From Herpetosiphon aurantiacus DSM 785 (lineage in GTDB: Bacteria > Chloroflexota > Chloroflexia > Chloroflexales > Herpetosiphonaceae): a stretch of 64,000 nt of DNA. The notes beneath the pieces were generated by a model. That model saw only the letters and a program-made list of their open reading frames with translations. It was not told the origin of the DNA and did not search any database. Below are positions 4,397-23,465 of this stretch, one piece after another (the first letter of the stretch is position 1; each line of letters opens with the position of its first letter). The stretch covers positions 4,293,199-4,357,198 of the forward strand of contig CP000875.1 in NCBI GenBank assembly GCA_000018565.1, given 5' to 3'. The position numbers and the translations under genes are program-made.

Positions 4397-4993
4397 TTGA
4401 GAACCAATTTTGTGCTGATCGATTACGAAAATGTGCAACCAGCCACGATCGAATCATTAAACCACGAGCATATTAAACTGCTGATCTTCGTGGGAGCAAA
4501 TCAGACCAAAGTGCCAATTGAGATTGCGGTCGCGCTTCAGCAGTTAGGCTCACGCGCTAGCTACGTTAAAATCTCTGGTAATGGCAGCAACGCGCTCGAT
4601 TTCCACATTGCGTTTTATATCGGCCAATTAGCCGCCCAAGAGCCTAGCGCATATTTTCATATTGTTTCCAAAGATACGGGCTTTGACCCCTTGATCCAGC
4701 ACCTCAAAAGTAAAAAGATCTTTGCAAATCGCGTTCAAAACGTTAACGATATTCCCAGAGTAAAGATAGCACTAGCCTCAACCTTAGATGCGCAGGTCGA
4801 AGTTATTATTACCAGCCTTCAAGGCAATAAAAGTTCAAAACCTCGCACTATTAAAACCTTGAGCAGTACCATCAACGCAATCTTTCTCAAAAAACTATCT
4901 GAGGCTGAGCTAGAAGCGCTAATCAATCAACTAAAAACCATGGGACTTATTGAGGTGGATGATACGAAGGTGAGTTATAAACTGACAAGTTAA
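4397..4993 (+). CDS. PIN-like/NYN domain protein
   Basis: This 198-residue protein opens with VLIDYENVQ, and carries a later VSKDTGFDPLI, the two acidic motifs typical of NYN/PIN-like nuclease folds. The acidic residues D9 and E11 and the Asp residues of KDTGFD would form the metal site. The last 60 residues look like a small helical, winged-helix-like domain. The likely start is the TTG at 4397, with AAGGGGG five bases upstream; no better ATG exists. NYN proteins are usually RNases, but some are inactive. It stands alone with its own terminator, so no partner is suggested. Confidence 0.75.
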   Translation: MRTNFVLIDYENVQPATIESLNHEHIKLLIFVGANQTKVPIEIAVALQQLGSRASYVKISGNGSNALDFHIAFYIGQLAAQEPSAYFHIVSKDTGFDPLIQHLKSKKIFANRVQNVNDIPRVKIALASTLDAQVEVIITSLQGNKSSKPRTIKTLSSTINAIFLKKLSEAELEALINQLKTMGLIEVDDTKVSYKLTS

Positions 4994-5033: not shown

Positions 5034-5990
5034 TTATTGTTGTTGCTGCATTTGTTGCAACACCGCCGCCACATCGCCACCCTCAACCACCGACCAGCCT
5101 TCTAGTTTCGATGGTTGATCGGCTTGTAATGGCTCGTCGGCAAGGCACACTTGGACAGCTACTTCGAGTGTACTTTGGGTTTCGCCCTTGAAAATGCCAT
5201 GGGTCGGCGGCACATCAGCATAATCACGGCCAAGCGCCACCCGAATATGCCGATCGGCTACCACCACATTGTTGGTTGGATCAAAGCCAACCCAGCCAAG
5301 GCTGGGCAACCACGCCTCAACCCAGGCATGCGAGGCATCAGCCGCCGAACGCACACTGTCGTCGGTGCGATGAAACAGATAGCCGCTCACATACCGCGCC
5401 GGAATTTGTAACCAACGCAAGAGGCTGAGCATAATATGGGTGTAATCTTGGCAAACGCCGCGTCGGGTGGCCAAAGCTTCATCGATTGGCGAATCAGCGC
5501 GGGTGCTCTGCGGAACATACTCAAATTTATCGTAGATTGCTTGGGTAATTTGGCGAATCAAAGTAAGTGGATCAAGCTGTTTGCTCAGGCCAATTTCGTT
5601 GGCAAACGCTTGCAGCAAATCGGTCGAGTGCACAAATTGGCTGGAATTAAGATAATCCCAATCGTGGCCGTTCAAGGCATGATCTTCCAAACCTTGCCAG
5701 GTATTGAGATCAAGCATGAGATCGTCGGCTGGCGCTTGAATCCGATTTTCAACATAGGCTTGGGTGATAATTTCAAGCTGAGTATGCGCCCGTGGAATGC
5801 CAAAATGATGCACCGTATTGCCCTGCGAATCGTAATAAACCAAGACTTTTGATTTTGGCTTGGTGGTTATGTCAAACGATAAGCAGCGTTGATCGCCCTC
5901 GGTGCGCGGTTGTTTGCGAACTTCCATCATGCTTTCGCTAATCGGGTTGCTATAACGAAAGCGGGTAACGTGGCGAATGGTGTAGTACAT
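5034..5990 (-). CDS. Transglutaminase-like cysteine protease
   Basis: A 318-residue protein with the bacterial transglutaminase-like N-terminal beta domain (residues 1-90) followed by the transglutaminase core. The catalytic triad is visible: C180 in RRGVCQDYTH, H221 in SHAWVEAW and D237 in GFDPTN. The ATG at 5990 was chosen over an upstream TTG because GCAGG precedes it. Proteins of this type are generally cytoplasmic and more likely hydrolyse than form amide bonds. It is the last gene of an operon with alpha-E, ADP-ribosylglycohydrolase-like and probably the circularly permuted ATP-grasp genes. That combination is a known conserved peptide-ligase/peptidase gene set whose product is still not established. 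Confidence 0.9.
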   Translation of the reverse strand: MYYTIRHVTRFRYSNPISESMMEVRKQPRTEGDQRCLSFDITTKPKSKVLVYYDSQGNTVHHFGIPRAHTQLEIITQAYVENRIQAPADDLMLDLNTWQGLEDHALNGHDWDYLNSSQFVHSTDLLQAFANEIGLSKQLDPLTLIRQITQAIYDKFEYVPQSTRADSPIDEALATRRGVCQDYTHIMLSLLRWLQIPARYVSGYLFHRTDDSVRSAADASHAWVEAWLPSLGWVGFDPTNNVVVADRHIRVALGRDYADVPPTHGIFKGETQSTLEVAVQVCLADEPLQADQPSKLEGWSVVEGGDVAAVLQQMQQQQ

Positions 5991-6017
5991 AGCACCTGCC
6001 AAACTTCAAGCGTGAAA

Positions 6018-6938
6018 TCAAATAGTTTCGAGGCCAAGGCTGGCCAAAAACCAGCTTGGCAAAGGTTCGCGGGCATGCAGCCATGGCGGTGGAATACAAT
6101 CGCGGCCTAGCGTGCCCGCCAACAAGCCACCAACAATCGCGGCCATCGAGGTAAAGTTGCCGCCAGCTGCACACACCTGCTCGATCGCCGCAGCATAATC
6201 ATCGCGATAATGCACAGCACACCACAAGCACCATGGAACGGTAGCTTGGGCGCTATGCTGATAGCCATTACTTAAGCGTAAAGCAATGTGATGCCACATT
6301 TGGCGATCATTCATTGCCGCCGCTAAGGCCAAACGATGCTCAAGGCTGCTACTTGGCACATATTGCCCAATCTCGGCCAAGATTGCCGAGGGCTGGCGCA
6401 GCGGTTGATCACGTTCGCGCCAGAGAATTGCGCCTGCCACTGCCACTGCCACCGCTCCCGCCACCGCCTCAGGATGGGTATGGGTGGTAAGCGCCGAAAG
6501 TTGCGCTTGTTGAGCAACCTCGTTCAGCGGAGCATCAGCCAAAAATAAGCCCAAGGGAGCCACCCGCATGGCCGCGCCAACTCCAAACGAGCCTTGTCCA
6601 TCAAATAAGTTTTGAGCATCGCTCATGACGGCTGCGCCATCACGCGGCTTGGCCAACAATTGATGCATCGACGTACCATAATCACGAACTGGGGTGTAGC
6701 GCAAGGCCAAATCGGCAGCCAACGCCGCACTATGCACCGCGCCATAATGCCATAATTGATCAACCAACGAACATGCCATCAAGGTTGCGTCTGTCCACAG
6801 CCATGGTGCTGGCAAAAGGCTGGGCTGGTCGGCAACTGCAAGCCCAGTTTGAACTTGCTGCCAAAGCTGTTGACCATAGGCTTCGCCCACCGATAAGCCT
6901 GTTAAGGCCGCCAACATGCGCTGTTGTGCTGCTGTCAT
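6018..6938 (-). CDS. ADP-ribosylglycohydrolase homologue with altered metal sites
   Basis: The 306-residue protein shows the all-helical ADP-ribosylglycohydrolase fold: a GLSVGEAYG start, WTDAT at 48-52, GSFGVGAAMRVAPLG in the middle and a C-terminal AAIVGGLLAGTLG. Active members have WTDDT near the start and GDTDT near the end, whose Asp residues bind two Mg ions. Here the first reads WTDAT and the second reads GGNFTS (259-264), so at least three ligand positions are changed. It may be a binding-only protein or act on another substrate. The ATG at 6938 sits six bases after AAGG; the ATG at 6944 is too close. It starts nine bases after the alpha-E gene ends. Confidence 0.85.
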   Translation of the reverse strand: MTAAQQRMLAALTGLSVGEAYGQQLWQQVQTGLAVADQPSLLPAPWLWTDATLMACSLVDQLWHYGAVHSAALAADLALRYTPVRDYGTSMHQLLAKPRDGAAVMSDAQNLFDGQGSFGVGAAMRVAPLGLFLADAPLNEVAQQAQLSALTTHTHPEAVAGAVAVAVAGAILWRERDQPLRQPSAILAEIGQYVPSSSLEHRLALAAAMNDRQMWHHIALRLSNGYQHSAQATVPWCLWCAVHYRDDYAAAIEQVCAAGGNFTSMAAIVGGLLAGTLGRDCIPPPWLHAREPLPSWFLASLGLETI

Positions 6939-6946
6939 GATCATCC

Positions 6947-7891
6947 TTATACCAATGCTGTCTCCACCGGATAACTAATAAAGGTCTGATAGACGTTGGT
7001 ATGAATTTGTTGGCATTGTTGTTGAATGGTCGCTAAATAGCCGCTCAAGCCATCGGCCATAATCTCGTCAACTTGACCATAATCAAGACTTGCTTGTAAG
7101 CGCCCAGCCAAGCGCTTAACTCGATCGCCGCGTCGCCCAAGGGTATTCGAGGCGATCGCTTGAATCGAGGCCGCAACTTGGTCAGCGGCAAAACGCACCG
7201 AACGCGGCGATTCAGCGTTCAACAACAAAAATTCAGCAATTCGTTCTGGCCGAATATCAGCAGTATATACATTACAATAGGCCTCGAACGATGTACAGGA
7301 CTTTAGCAACCCAACCCAATCTAAATAATTGGTTTGATCATCGGGCGTGCCACCAGTTTCCGCAAAATGCACATCAAGCAAAATCGCTGTGGCCATGGCC
7401 CGCTCCATAAATTGGCCTAAACGCAGCCAGTGCCAGCATTCGCCATGGCTTAGGGTCGCAGTGGTAATGCCTTGAAACAGATGAATGCCCTCTTTCAACA
7501 CATTATGCAGAAATTCATGTGGCTCCTGCCACATCTGATCCATCGTTGTACGCTTGACCTGCAAATAGACCCGATTGAGTTGTTCCCACATTTCCGAACT
7601 AATTTGTTCGCGCACTTGGCGGGCATTCTCGCGGGCAGCGCCAATTCCACTGACCAATGAGCTAGCATTGCTGACATCAAAGGTCAAGGCCTGCACCAAC
7701 GCATAGGTTTGGGGAATACCCTCGTAATTCCAAGCCAAGTAGGTTTGCATGCGCTCCCAGCGACGTTCGGCAGCAGCCGGCGTTTGGTCGAGCATCAACG
7801 ATAAATTCACATCAAGCAAACGGGCGGTATGCTCGGTTCGCTCAAGGTAGCGGCCAATCCAATATAAACTATCAGCAACCCGCGATAACAT
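6947..7891 (-). CDS. Alpha-E domain protein (DUF403)
   Basis: A 314-residue, almost entirely helical protein that begins MLSRVADSLYWIGRYLER, the characteristic opening of alpha-E proteins. The ERTEHTARLLDV that follows and the ECWHWLRLGQFMERA motif in the middle also fit. Alpha-E proteins occur next to circularly permuted ATP-grasp ligases and transglutaminase-like proteases, and are thought to work with the ligase in making a peptide-like product or protein tag. The biochemical role is not proven. The gene lies between those two partners here; it is separated from the ATP-grasp gene by 216 bases holding a palindromic repeat. Confidence 0.9.
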   Translation of the reverse strand: MLSRVADSLYWIGRYLERTEHTARLLDVNLSLMLDQTPAAAERRWERMQTYLAWNYEGIPQTYALVQALTFDVSNASSLVSGIGAARENARQVREQISSEMWEQLNRVYLQVKRTTMDQMWQEPHEFLHNVLKEGIHLFQGITTATLSHGECWHWLRLGQFMERAMATAILLDVHFAETGGTPDDQTNYLDWVGLLKSCTSFEAYCNVYTADIRPERIAEFLLLNAESPRSVRFAADQVAASIQAIASNTLGRRGDRVKRLAGRLQASLDYGQVDEIMADGLSGYLATIQQQCQQIHTNVYQTFISYPVETALV

Positions 7892-7923: not shown

Positions 7924-8033
7924 GATGCCCTCACCCCCAGCCCCTCTCCCACGGCGGCGGGCGAGGGGTGCACTGCTAGAGCGGTTCCCCCTCGCCTCGC
8001 GTGCGGGAGTTGGGGCTAGGGGGTGAGGGCATC
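7924..8033. repeat. Dispersed long palindrome, family A copy 1
   Basis: GATGCCCTCACCCCCAGCCC at the left end pairs with GGGGCTAGGGGGTGAGGGCATC-type sequence at the right end, with one extra A, and the inner parts CGGGCGAGGGG and CCCCTCGCCTCGCG also pair. The whole 110 bases can fold into one imperfect hairpin. Related copies lie at 23404-24893 (split), 43474-43578, 45328-45371 (fragment), 48408-48680 (split) and 63482-63632. Confidence 0.9.
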
Positions 8034-8107
8034 GTGCTCCCCAATCCCCAACTCCTATACTCTATGTTCTATGCTCTTTTTCATCCCTCATCCCTCATAC
8101 TTCATCC

Positions 8108-9550
8108 TTAATAAAGAACCCATGTATCTTTGCTGCCGCCACCTTGCGATGAATTGACCACCAACGAGCCACGCCGCAAGGCTACCCGCGTCAGGCCGCC
8201 AGGCACAATGCTAATTTGATCGCCAAACAAAATGTAGGGACGTAAATCGACGTGGCGAGATTCGAGTTTGCCATCAATAAAACAGGGAGCTTTGGAAAGC
8301 GCAAGGGTTGGTTGGGCAATGTAGTTGCGGGGGTTGGCAATAATGCGATCGCGAAACTGGCTACGTTGCTCGATTGTGCTATGTGGCCCAATCAGCATAT
8401 CGTAGCCACCCGATTCGCCGACCGCCTTGACCACCAATGAATCCAAGTTATTCAGCACATGCTGACGTTGACGATCATCGCTGAGCAAAAAGGTTTCGAC
8501 ATTGGGCAAAATCGGGTCTTCATCAAGATAGAATTTAATCATCGCTGGCACATAGGCATAAATCGCTTTATCATCGGCTACCCCTGTGCCCAAGGCATTG
8601 GCCAAAGCCACATTGCCAGCCCGATAGGCATTCAACAAGCCTGCCACGCCCAGCACTGAATCAGGCCGAAATGCTAAAGGATCAATAAATTCATCATCGA
8701 CTCGCCGATAAATCACATCAACGCGGCGCAAACCAGCGGTCGTGCGCATATACACCACATTATCGTGAACAATTAAATCGCGGCCTTCGACCAGCTCAAC
8801 CCCCATCTGGCGGGCCAAAAAGGTGTGTTCGTAGTAAGCTGAATTAAAAACCCCAGGCGTAAGCAGCACAATCGTTGGGTCGCTGCGGCCTTGCGGCGCT
8901 AACGAGCGCAAGGTTGCCAACAAGGCTTGGCCATAATGGTCGATCGAGCGCACCCCATAGCTCGAAAACAACTGTGGAAACACGCGTTTCATCACCAAAC
9001 GATTGGCCAGCATATACGACACGCCACTGGGAACTCGCAAATTATCTTCTAGTACCGCAAATTGGCCGCTTGGCAAACGGATCAAATCGGTGCCAACGAT
9101 CGAAACATAGCGATCGCGTGGCACGCTAACTCCCCGCATTTGGCGCGAAAAATGGCGACAGCTATAGACCAATTCGCGCGGCACAACTCCGGCTTTTAAA
9201 ATTGTTTCCTCGTGGTAAATATCGCGCAAAAACAAATTTAATGCCGTAACCCGCTGCGCCAACCCACGCTCAATCGTATCCCACTCTTTGGCGGTCAACA
9301 GCCGTGGCAGCAAATCATAGGGGAAAATGCGCTCAGTGCCTTCATCGCGACCATAGACTGTAAAGGTAATTCCTTGATTGAGAAAAGCCAAATCCGCCGC
9401 TTGCTGGCGACGAGCCAACTCATCAGGCGGCAACTCGCGCAGCCGTTCCGACAGTAGCCGATAATGTGGACGAGGCGTGTTTGGGCCAAGAAACAACTCA
9501 TCGTAAGCGGTTTCGAGTTGATACTGACGAAAAGGGGCTACATCGGGCAT
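8108..9550 (-). CDS. Circularly permuted ATP-grasp protein
   Basis: The 480-residue protein matches the circularly permuted type of ATP-grasp ligase (DUF404/DUF407). Landmarks are the N-terminal YDELFLG, the stretch [31 protein letters not shown], the [15 protein letters not shown] signature and a late [19 protein letters not shown]-grasp enzymes join a carboxyl group to an amine through an acyl phosphate. The natural substrate of this branch is unknown. The ATG at 9550 has AAGGAG six bases upstream. It is the first gene of the set with alpha-E, the ADP-ribosylglycohydrolase homologue and the transglutaminase-like protein, although a repeat interrupts the spacing downstream. Confidence 0.92.
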
Positions 9551-9805: not shown

Positions 9806-10609
9806 GTGCCAAGCTTCCAGCAGATTTGGGAACGAGTTTCTTTCTTAGCAGCTCTAGATATTCTGCTTGTTGCTGCCTTGATTTTTTGGCTGCTCGGGGT
9901 CATTCGTGGCACTCGCGCAGTGCAATTATTGCGCGGGGTCGGCATTTTAGTCGTCGTTGCACTACTAGCTGGCTCAACCTTGCCGCTTACCACATTGCGC
10001 TGGATCATTCGCGAAGCCCTCAGCCCAGCCCTATTCGTCGCAATTCCGATTCTGTTTCAGCCGGAATTACGCCGTGCGCTCGAATCGTTGGGCCGCACTG
10101 GCGAATGGTTTAATCGCTTTGGCAGCACTAATCGCTCCGATGTTGAGGAGATGATCAACACCATTTCGCGGGCAGCCAAACAATTATCACAACAAGGCAT
10201 TGGCGCATTAATGGTGATCGAGCGTGATACCGGCTTGCAAGAATATGCCGACCGTGGCGTGATCGTCGATTCGCGCATCTCCGTGCCCTTGCTGGTGAAT
10301 ATTTTCTTCCCCAACGCGCCACTCCACGATATGGCGGTGATTTTTCGGCGCAACCGCATTTTGGCCGCCAACTGTGTGCTACCACTCAGCGAAAATGTGG
10401 TTGGCAGCACGCGCTATGGCACGCGCCACCGTGCCGCTTTGGGCATCAGCGAACAATCTGATGCAATTTCGGTGATCGTTTCCGAAGAAACTGGCAGCAT
10501 TTCGATTACCCACGATGGCCGCATGGTGCGCCATTTAACTGAAGGTCGTTTACGCAAACTGCTGGCTGGCTTATTGCGCGTCGAATTAAGCGAGGAAGAA
10601 GAAGTATGA
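9806..10609 (+). CDS. cdaA: Diadenylate cyclase CdaA
   Basis: This 267-residue enzyme should make c-di-AMP from two ATP at the inner membrane. Three hydrophobic helices fill residues 13-85, followed by a short coiled segment and the DisA_N catalytic domain (about 105-235). The RHR motif is present at 207-209 within GTRHRAALG. The normally invariant DGA motif reads D175-M176-A177 (PLHDMAVIF); the catalytic Asp is kept but the Gly is replaced by Met. The start is a GTG at 9806. The next gene, a YbbR/CdaR protein, overlaps by four bases, the usual pairing. The frequent third partner glmM is absent here. Confidence 0.93.
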   Translation: MPSFQQIWERVSFLAALDILLVAALIFWLLGVIRGTRAVQLLRGVGILVVVALLAGSTLPLTTLRWIIREALSPALFVAIPILFQPELRRALESLGRTGEWFNRFGSTNRSDVEEMINTISRAAKQLSQQGIGALMVIERDTGLQEYADRGVIVDSRISVPLLVNIFFPNAPLHDMAVIFRRNRILAANCVLPLSENVVGSTRYGTRHRAALGISEQSDAISVIVSEETGSISITHDGRMVRHLTEGRLRKLLAGLLRVELSEEEEV

Positions 10610-11985
10610 ATAAGCTTGCAGGTAGCCCATTACGCGCCTTCGTTGCCGCAGTCTTGGCGAGCATCATTTGGGTGTTTGTCAGTTTCACCGAAAATCCGCA
10701 GCAAGTTACGCCATTTACCAATTTGCCGATTCGCGCCGAGGGGCTGAGCAGCAATTTAACCTTAGTTGATGGCGAGGGTCGGCCAATTCCCGTGCCCGAT
10801 GCTGTTGTTAACTTAAATGTTTCTGGCCCGCAAGATACAATCACCCGCATTACCAAGCAAAATGTCCAACCATTTATTAATATCGCCGGGCTAGAGCCTG
10901 GCTCACATGAAGTTGCGGTGCAAGCTCGCAGCATTCCTAGCCGCTCCGATCTCGATTTTCAGAGCTTTCAGCCCGCCACAGTTTTAGTCCAGATCGAACA
11001 GATCATCACAGCCTCGCTGCCGTTGACCATCACCACGGTTGGTCAGCCGCCAACCAGCTATGAAGCCAGTTTGCCAATTGCCAGCGTCAATGGCGAGATG
11101 ATCAAACAGGTAACGATAACTGGGCCAGCCAGCCAAGTTAATAAGGTCGTTGGTGGCGAAATTACGCTTGATCTGTCGTCGCAAACCAGTAATTTGCGTA
11201 CTCGCCGTAATATTATCGCAGTCGATATTGCTGGGCGTGATGTTGAAGGCGTAACGGTTAGCCCTGAGTTGGCTGATATCGAAGTGCGGATTTTATCCAG
11301 CAGCGGGATCAAGCGTGTGCCGATTATCTACACAACCCTCAACAGTCCGCCAGCGGGCTATCGCGCTGAGGTAGTGCTTGAGCCAGCCTTCGTAACATTA
11401 ATTGGTAGCGCTCAGCGCTTAACCGAAGTGGAATTTGTTGAAACTCAACCGCTCAATTTGCCAAATAGCACCCAAAGCTACACCGCAACGATTAAATTGC
11501 GCTTTCCGATTGGGGTAACTCCGCGCGATGCTCAAGCTGCCGATAGCACGATCGCCACGATTCGCTTTGTGCCAATTAGCACCGAAATTGTGCTCAACCT
11601 GCCGCTTGTGCCGCGCAATTTGCCCGCTGGCCTCGAGTTGAGCTACCAGCCCAAACAGCTTGAAGTAACGTTACGGGGCAATGCCCAGAATTTACAAAAC
11701 CTCAATAATTTGGCGTTGGTGTTGGATTTAGCTGGACGGAATGCCGGTAGCCATAGCATTCAGCCCAGCCTTAATCTGCCAACTGGCATCACATTAGCCA
11801 AACCATTGACTACGATTTCAGTAACCTTAAGTGCGATTATCGTACCCACAGCTGAGCCAACTAGCCCGATTGAACCGACTGAGCCAGCAACTACGCCAAT
11901 CGCTACGCCAACCGTGACCGAGCCAATTAGCCCAACCGAGCCAATTAGCCCGACCGAGCCAATCAGCCCGACCTTAACTCCTTAA
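10606..11985 (+). CDS. cdaR: YbbR-domain protein, CdaA partner (CdaR-like)
   Basis: A 459-residue protein anchored by one N-terminal membrane helix (residues 9-27) with the rest outside the membrane. About four YbbR repeats follow, each containing a phrase such as VVNLNVSGPQDTI, VKQVTITGPASQV, FVTLIGSAQRL or LEVTLRGNAQNL. The last 45 residues are a Pro/Thr/Glu-rich tail built on PTEPIS units, unusual for the family and perhaps a spacer through the cell envelope. CdaR proteins bind and regulate CdaA. The ATG overlaps the cdaA stop as ATGA. Its TAA shares the TTAA at 11982-11985 with the convergent regulator gene. Confidence 0.9.
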   Translation: MNKLAGSPLRAFVAAVLASIIWVFVSFTENPQQVTPFTNLPIRAEGLSSNLTLVDGEGRPIPVPDAVVNLNVSGPQDTITRITKQNVQPFINIAGLEPGSHEVAVQARSIPSRSDLDFQSFQPATVLVQIEQIITASLPLTITTVGQPPTSYEASLPIASVNGEMIKQVTITGPASQVNKVVGGEITLDLSSQTSNLRTRRNIIAVDIAGRDVEGVTVSPELADIEVRILSSSGIKRVPIIYTTLNSPPAGYRAEVVLEPAFVTLIGSAQRLTEVEFVETQPLNLPNSTQSYTATIKLRFPIGVTPRDAQAADSTIATIRFVPISTEIVLNLPLVPRNLPAGLELSYQPKQLEVTLRGNAQNLQNLNNLALVLDLAGRNAGSHSIQPSLNLPTGITLAKPLTTISVTLSAIIVPTAEPTSPIEPTEPATTPIATPTVTEPISPTEPISPTEPISPTLTP

Positions 11986-23362: not shown

Positions 23363-23465
23363 TGAACTAGAGTTTATTCTGAGGCCAGTTTCTGGCCGCT
23401 AACTGTAATTAATGGTTCATTGGGTTGGCAACCATTTCTCGTTCCCTCACCCCCAACCCCTCTCC

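Follow-up and report, generated by a model that had tools for sequence, protein, structure and literature searches.

A probable genus-wide pseudo-ADP-ribosylhydrolase of Herpetosiphon that has lost most of its magnesium-binding Asp residues and persists in a genome that lost its host operon

The chromosome of Herpetosiphon aurantiacus DSM 785 carries, within an ATP-grasp/Alpha-E/transglutaminase operon, a homologue of ADP-ribosylhydrolases (ARHs) whose Mg-binding site has been largely dismantled. The protein is probably a genus-wide bacterial form of the known ADP-ribosylhydrolase pseudoenzymes. We regard it, with moderate confidence, as a selected and genus-specific pseudo-hydrolase that would bind an adenine-nucleotide or ADP-ribosyl ligand without cleaving it, in a role independent of the operon. 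The sequences themselves show the homology, the missing ligands, the conservation, the position of the gene and its survival where the operon has gone; from these we infer the mechanism, with loss of activity, ligand binding and a non-catalytic role. A literature search, with subscription papers mostly outside it, returned no report of a bacterial ARH pseudoenzyme and no ARH-type gene in an Alpha-E operon.

The gene, its protein and its neighbours

The window, which is the whole stretch of 64,000 nucleotides that was analysed, contains the four genes of the cluster on the minus strand in the order ATP-grasp, Alpha-E, pseudo-hydrolase, transglutaminase.

8108..9550, minus strand: circularly permuted ATP-grasp protein, first gene in the cluster (PF14403, E=1.7e-169)
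6947..7891, minus strand: Alpha-E protein (PF04168, E=7e-86), its stop codon and the ATG at 6944 being 2 bases apart
6018..6944, minus strand: ARH3/DraG-fold pseudo-ADP-ribosylhydrolase, 308 aa (PF03747, 139.5 bits; mean pLDDT 94.5; Z 34.9 to ARH3 7aks)
5034..6002, minus strand: transglutaminase-like protein, next after the pseudo-hydrolase (PF01841 and PF08379)

The ATP-grasp, Alpha-E and transglutaminase setting, recognized in an earlier note made from the sequence alone, was confirmed with Pfam. A role in peptide synthesis is proposed for this gene set in an excerpt of PMC5666114, which cites Iyer 2009. The pseudo-hydrolase frame starts with the ATG at 6944 and stops at 6018; of the span 6018-6938 given in the earlier note, the stop end was retained and the start was moved, as 6938 is the second in-frame ATG and 6944 the first. 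The product is by profile a member of the PF03747 superfamily covered over its full length (E=2.3e-40, residues 12-286 on positions 1-286 of 287; cut-off 26.2 bits). Its AlphaFold model (pTM 0.94) is predicted to have the all-helical ARH fold. The solved structures closest to the model were those of ARH3 (Foldseek E 2.8e-11), with human ARH3 7aks superposing at a VIA Z of 34.9 and an rmsd of 2.8 over 290 aligned residues, and ARH3 was also the best sequence match in the PDB. An intact relative was modelled too, at a pLDDT of 95.5. The genome of the window has two further PF03747 genes elsewhere, both with intact motifs.

Several neighbouring elements were recorded. A G/C-rich inverted repeat lies at 8006-8055 of the window, between the ATP-grasp and Alpha-E genes; its CCCTCACCCCCTAGCCCC-like arm has four matches across the window at no more than 3 mismatches (0 expected), the others being near 23444, 48664 and 63580, and the repeat is perhaps a dispersed element of the H. 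aurantiacus genome. A PIN7-domain gene (4397-4993, plus strand) stands beside the operon; it occurs in some Herpetosiphon genomes and was undetected in the loci taken from genomes G078 and G043. At 9806-11985 of the window are two genes that we take to be diadenylate-cyclase-like and YbbR-like. All six Herpetosiphon genomes have this divergently oriented pair beside the site of the operon, but the 80 Alpha-E loci of other Chloroflexota gave no tallied match to DacA or YbbR.

Loss of the metal site

In ARH3, the two Mg ions are liganded by T76, D77, D78, D314, D316 and T317, with Glu41 nearby (excerpt of PMC9738213). The corresponding set in the pseudo-hydrolase reads T51, D52, A53, N263, T265 and S266. 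The two motif changes described in the earlier note were both found, WTDDT being replaced by WTDAT at residues 50-54 and the C-terminal GDTDT by GGNFTS at residues 261-266. Its count of at least three altered Mg-binding positions also held: by comparison with ARH3, three of the four Asp residues are lost (D53A, D263N and D265T), and T266S is changed in addition. The residues concerned, and two further pocket residues, are encoded as follows.

6786..6791, minus strand: D52 (kept) and A53 (ARH3 D78 position, lost), from alignment columns
6579..6581, minus strand: V122, where all 97 intact relatives have Asn
6243..6245, minus strand: A234, where 92 of the 97 intact relatives have Asp
6147..6158, minus strand: N263, F264, T265 and S266, at the positions of ARH3 D314, T315, D316 and T317, from the alignment

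The two Asp pairs for the two Mg ions are absent in all six Herpetosiphon orthologues, in which D52 alone remains, and all four columns are Asp in 79 of 79 relatives from outside the genus. These 79 are the best 80 of 528 confirmed matches in genome_contigs minus one, from H. llansteffanensis. Two of the three search patterns lay off the metal columns, but the ranking was tilted to close relatives, so ligand-less members may exist elsewhere. The column of ARH3 Glu41 has Trp in the pseudo-hydrolase; among the relatives it is mostly Phe (70/79) and Glu in one (1/79), and the difference at Glu41 is therefore a subfamily trait.

The six Herpetosiphon sequences were also compared with 97 intact rows (18 from the Chloroflexota alignment and 79 from genome_contigs, at least one organism probably being present twice). 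Fixed changes at near-invariant columns were D21E, D53A, N122V, A133L, G225S, D263N, D265T and T266S, and D234A falls just under the near-invariance threshold. E21 retains an acid at a D position. As judged from alignment columns, none of the acids gained in Herpetosiphon stands at a metal-ligand column. The fold motifs between the metal motifs are retained, as the earlier note had it: 42 of the 53 columns that are at least 95% conserved in the intact rows are the same in all six orthologues.

Mutation of a single Mg-coordinating residue abolished the activity of hARH1 and LchARH3 (excerpt of PMC6309922). The ARH3 mutants D77A, D78A, D314A and D316A were inactive on Ser-ADPr, and D314A alone among them had some residual PAR activity (excerpt of PMC8141533). 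Classical two-metal ADP-ribosyl hydrolysis has in all likelihood been lost in the pseudo-hydrolase, because the mutation of one ligand is sufficient to inactivate characterised ARHs.

Retention of the nucleotide-site residues

In LchARH3, Phe129 and Tyr135 flank the adenosine, which Gly133 and Ser134 also help to hold, and the contacts of the pyrophosphate include Gly138 and His168 (excerpt of PMC6309922). The corresponding places in the pseudo-hydrolase are occupied by F114, G118, S119, F120, G123 and H155, all kept in the six orthologues, and the ARH3-like motif F-x3-G-S-[YF]-x2-G and the conserved His are present. This conservation of pocket residues points to a protein that would still bind a ligand. 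N122V and D234A suggest that the pocket has been altered beyond the metals; binding of ADP-ribose may fail, or the ligand may have changed.

Comparison with known ARH proteins

The closest parallel is ADPRHL1/ARH2, the vertebrate cardiac pseudo-ADP-ribosylhydrolase. Mammalian ADPRHL1 lost D56, D302 and D304 (ARH1 numbering), keeps D55 and has no comparable hydrolase activity (excerpt of PMC7390403). The two proteins share the ARH fold, the loss of the same three Asp residues and conservation despite this loss, whereas the adenosine/ribose-site residues are changed in ADPRHL1 and those of the ARH3 type are kept in the pseudo-hydrolase. The losses probably arose independently and by convergence, because the Herpetosiphon clade is nested among bacterial ARH3-like rows in a 51-row tree, which has no vertebrate rows. 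ARH3 (ADPRS) and the bacterial ARH3-like hydrolases resemble the pseudo-hydrolase in structure and in the adenosine/pyrophosphate motif; unlike ARH3, the pseudo-hydrolase has lost the Mg site, and its bacterial subfamily is mostly without the Glu41 of ARH3. The dinitrogenase reductase-activating glycohydrolase DraG belongs to PF03747 as well and has the same fold (2woc, Z 25.5), but the pseudo-hydrolase, with its metal ligands lost, is far below the cut-off of the NCBIfam DraG equivalog TIGR02662 (25.1 against 337.05 bits). An ARH fold is also seen in ARHL of the chloroplast Orf2971/Ycf2-FtsHi motor complex (8xks chain Q, Z 30.7, 19% identity to the pseudo-hydrolase), a subunit of a large complex according to PDB records; 6sga chain FP is recorded there as a further ARH-fold subunit of a large complex.

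Distribution of the gene and its operon

Among 400 Chloroflexota genomes sampled, 114 had Alpha-E (6 Herpetosiphon and 108 others). From the 108, 80 loci were taken with up to 5 kb on each side or to the contig end. ATP-grasp, Alpha-E and transglutaminase occurred together in 74 of these 80, and a profile search detected an ARH-type frame in none of them, in contrast to the Herpetosiphon operon with its inserted ARH-type gene. The profile, built without row L031 and the fragments L026, L027 and L033, found its target in 20 of 20 control loci, which were the loci behind the profile or came from the genomes behind it. In the phyla of Nonomuraea, Lysobacter and Calothrix, where part of the Alpha-E matches were taken, an ARH-type frame was absent from all 83 Alpha-E loci (30, 30 and 23, respectively, with 1.5 kb on each side; controls 5/5 found). 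On the loci sampled, insertion of an ARH-type gene in the Alpha-E operon is confined to Herpetosiphon. In some firmicutes, according to an excerpt of PMC4431377, R2K ATP-grasp genes flank an ARG gene, in an operon that differs from the Alpha-E one.

Within the genus, the orthologue with the same metal losses is present in six of six genomes at 93-100% identity, that of G102 having GGNVTS in place of GGNFTS, and no internal stop was found in any of the six. The gene lies between Alpha-E and transglutaminase in all five intact operons. Pairwise dN/dS was 0.012-0.071 for the pseudo-hydrolase (15 pairs), 0.060-0.097 for the transglutaminase, 0.029-0.077 for Alpha-E and 0.007-0.025 for ATP-grasp (10 pairs each), and 0.071-0.127 for an intact ARH paralogue (3 pairs, with 3 more left out because they include the frameshifted G102 copy). 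Loss of catalytic residues under purifying selection is the pattern of a pseudoenzyme. According to the earlier note, Asp residues retained in close homologues of the same operon would point to decay in this strain; instead, the losses are shared by all five intact operons and by the sixth genome, whose operon is ruined. Decay in a single strain was thus ruled out by the same changes in six genomes under strong constraint.

In the 51-row tree, the six orthologues form one clade with a shallow crown on a stem of 1.47 changes per site, the longest branch of the tree. This is a burst of change followed by stasis. The clade is sister to an intact gene of genome G070, with support (93/73) that is not strong; G070 represents the sister genus, the only other genus sampled in the family. 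Beside the intact G070 relative is a NADAR gene, of the guanine ADP-ribosyl hydrolase family (locus L043, 9416-9883). We draw no general link between NADAR and ARH genes, a NADAR-like frame being found in just 2 of 100 loci, G070 itself among them; locus L213 likewise has a NADAR gene close by.

A second ARH-type gene with intact motifs lies about 1-4 kb from the operon site in four of the six Herpetosiphon genomes, at the following places.

L038, 5756-6634: second ARH-type gene
L040, 4048-4947: second ARH-type gene
L041, 9313-10212: second ARH-type gene
L042, 9834-10718: second ARH-type gene

The copy in G102 carries an internal stop, and the other two genomes gave no match to this gene. An origin of the pseudo-hydrolase from it was discarded, since this paralogue groups with another G070 gene (99/96).

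Persistence of the gene after operon loss

The pseudo-hydrolase is linked to the operon genes in five of the six Herpetosiphon genomes, and the sixth, G034, retains it without them. At least three deletions have removed the transglutaminase from G034 and reduced ATP-grasp to about 47 codons and Alpha-E to two pieces, and the pseudo-hydrolase frame is intact amid these remnants. The affected stretches are the following.

L041, 6998-7400: stretch of the dismantled operon in G034
L041, 8326-8475: stretch of the dismantled operon in G034

G034 is one draft genome, and the contig concerned (256,854 bases) has no N in this stretch. Elsewhere in the genome there was no other full Alpha-E gene, no ATP-grasp above the cut-off and no PF08379 match; a weak ATP-grasp match in G034 and G070 fell below the family cut-off, and we did not count it as a sign of another operon.

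Codon changes specific to G034 were counted where G102 and G043 agreed, leaving out deletion-edge codons. The operon remnants had 12 non-synonymous and 6 synonymous changes in 113 codons (9:1 in the ATP-grasp piece, 0:3 and 3:2 in the Alpha-E pieces), against 0 non-synonymous and 25 synonymous changes in 306 codons of the pseudo-hydrolase (Fisher p=1.2e-6); the remnants are short, and their relaxed signal comes mostly from the ATP-grasp piece (9 of 12 non-synonymous changes). The pseudo-hydrolase in two relatives with live operons gave 2:30 and 3:25. As its partners are deleted or decaying in G034 while the pseudo-hydrolase stays at 0:25, its role there is independent of them. The suggestion of the earlier note that the protein was recruited into the operon set is thus favoured by position, between Alpha-E and transglutaminase in this genus only, and disfavoured by G034.

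Discussion

The following course of events would account for these observations. An ARH3-like gene, whose orthologue in the sister genus is probably the intact one described above, would have been inserted into the Alpha-E operon no later than the base of Herpetosiphon. Three of the four Mg-binding Asp residues would have been lost during the burst of change, after which the sequence became almost fixed. The protein has kept its fold and the pocket's nucleotide half and may use them to bind, report or scaffold, the uncleaved ligand being bound by a reader or sensor or by a subunit of a complex, in a role that would need neither ATP-grasp nor Alpha-E nor transglutaminase.

Three other explanations were weighed against a selected pseudo-hydrolase acting apart from the operon. 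The protein could instead serve the ATP-grasp/Alpha-E/transglutaminase pathway, perhaps by acting as a scaffold or by binding a substrate as a subunit, its survival in G034 being mere inertia. Its place wedged between Alpha-E and transglutaminase in every intact Herpetosiphon operon, with 2 bases separating it from the Alpha-E stop in the window, speaks for such a function, as does the absence of an ARH-type gene from every other Alpha-E locus examined; but the 80 other Chloroflexota loci examined have the operon without an ARH gene, and in G034 the partners decay while the pseudo-hydrolase shows no non-synonymous change, and we consider this explanation rather unlikely. It is improbable, to a clearly greater degree, that the protein still works as an enzyme through a rebuilt site, with one metal or none taking part in its chemistry and with an ADP-ribosyl compound or something else as substrate. 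The very strong constraint, the long stem followed by stasis, the kept D52 and the coordinated pocket changes in all six genomes would fit a rebuilt site, and a different reaction, as offered in the earlier note, is conceivable; against a rebuilt site, characterised ARHs are inactive once a single ligand is lost, and the acids gained in the genus include none at a metal-ligand column.

Plain decay of a redundant gene, a pseudogene in the making, would agree with the lost ligands and with the other ARH-type genes available: four of the six genomes have one nearby, and the genome of the window has two intact PF03747 genes at other places. It is refuted by the dN/dS values, low in 15 of 15 pairs, the uninterrupted frames and the codon-change rates in G034, and we give it next to no weight.

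The selected pseudo-hydrolase might, more specifically, have arisen from an ARH3-type eraser, through a single recruitment at the root of Herpetosiphon, as a metal-free reader of ADP-ribosyl groups or adenine nucleotides with its target outside the operon, in independent parallel to vertebrate ADPRHL1; we put this forward tentatively. The adjacent, divergent diadenylate-cyclase-like gene is one candidate for an adenine-nucleotide partner.

The ADP-ribosylhydrolase pseudoenzymes known so far are mainly vertebrate, as represented by ADPRHL1, and the Herpetosiphon protein would add a bacterial, genus-wide case. The loss of the host operon in G034 amounts to a natural knockout, which separates the role of this gene from that of its neighbours. 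One small protein thereby allows direct tests of ADP-ribose binding without catalysis and of independence from the operon.
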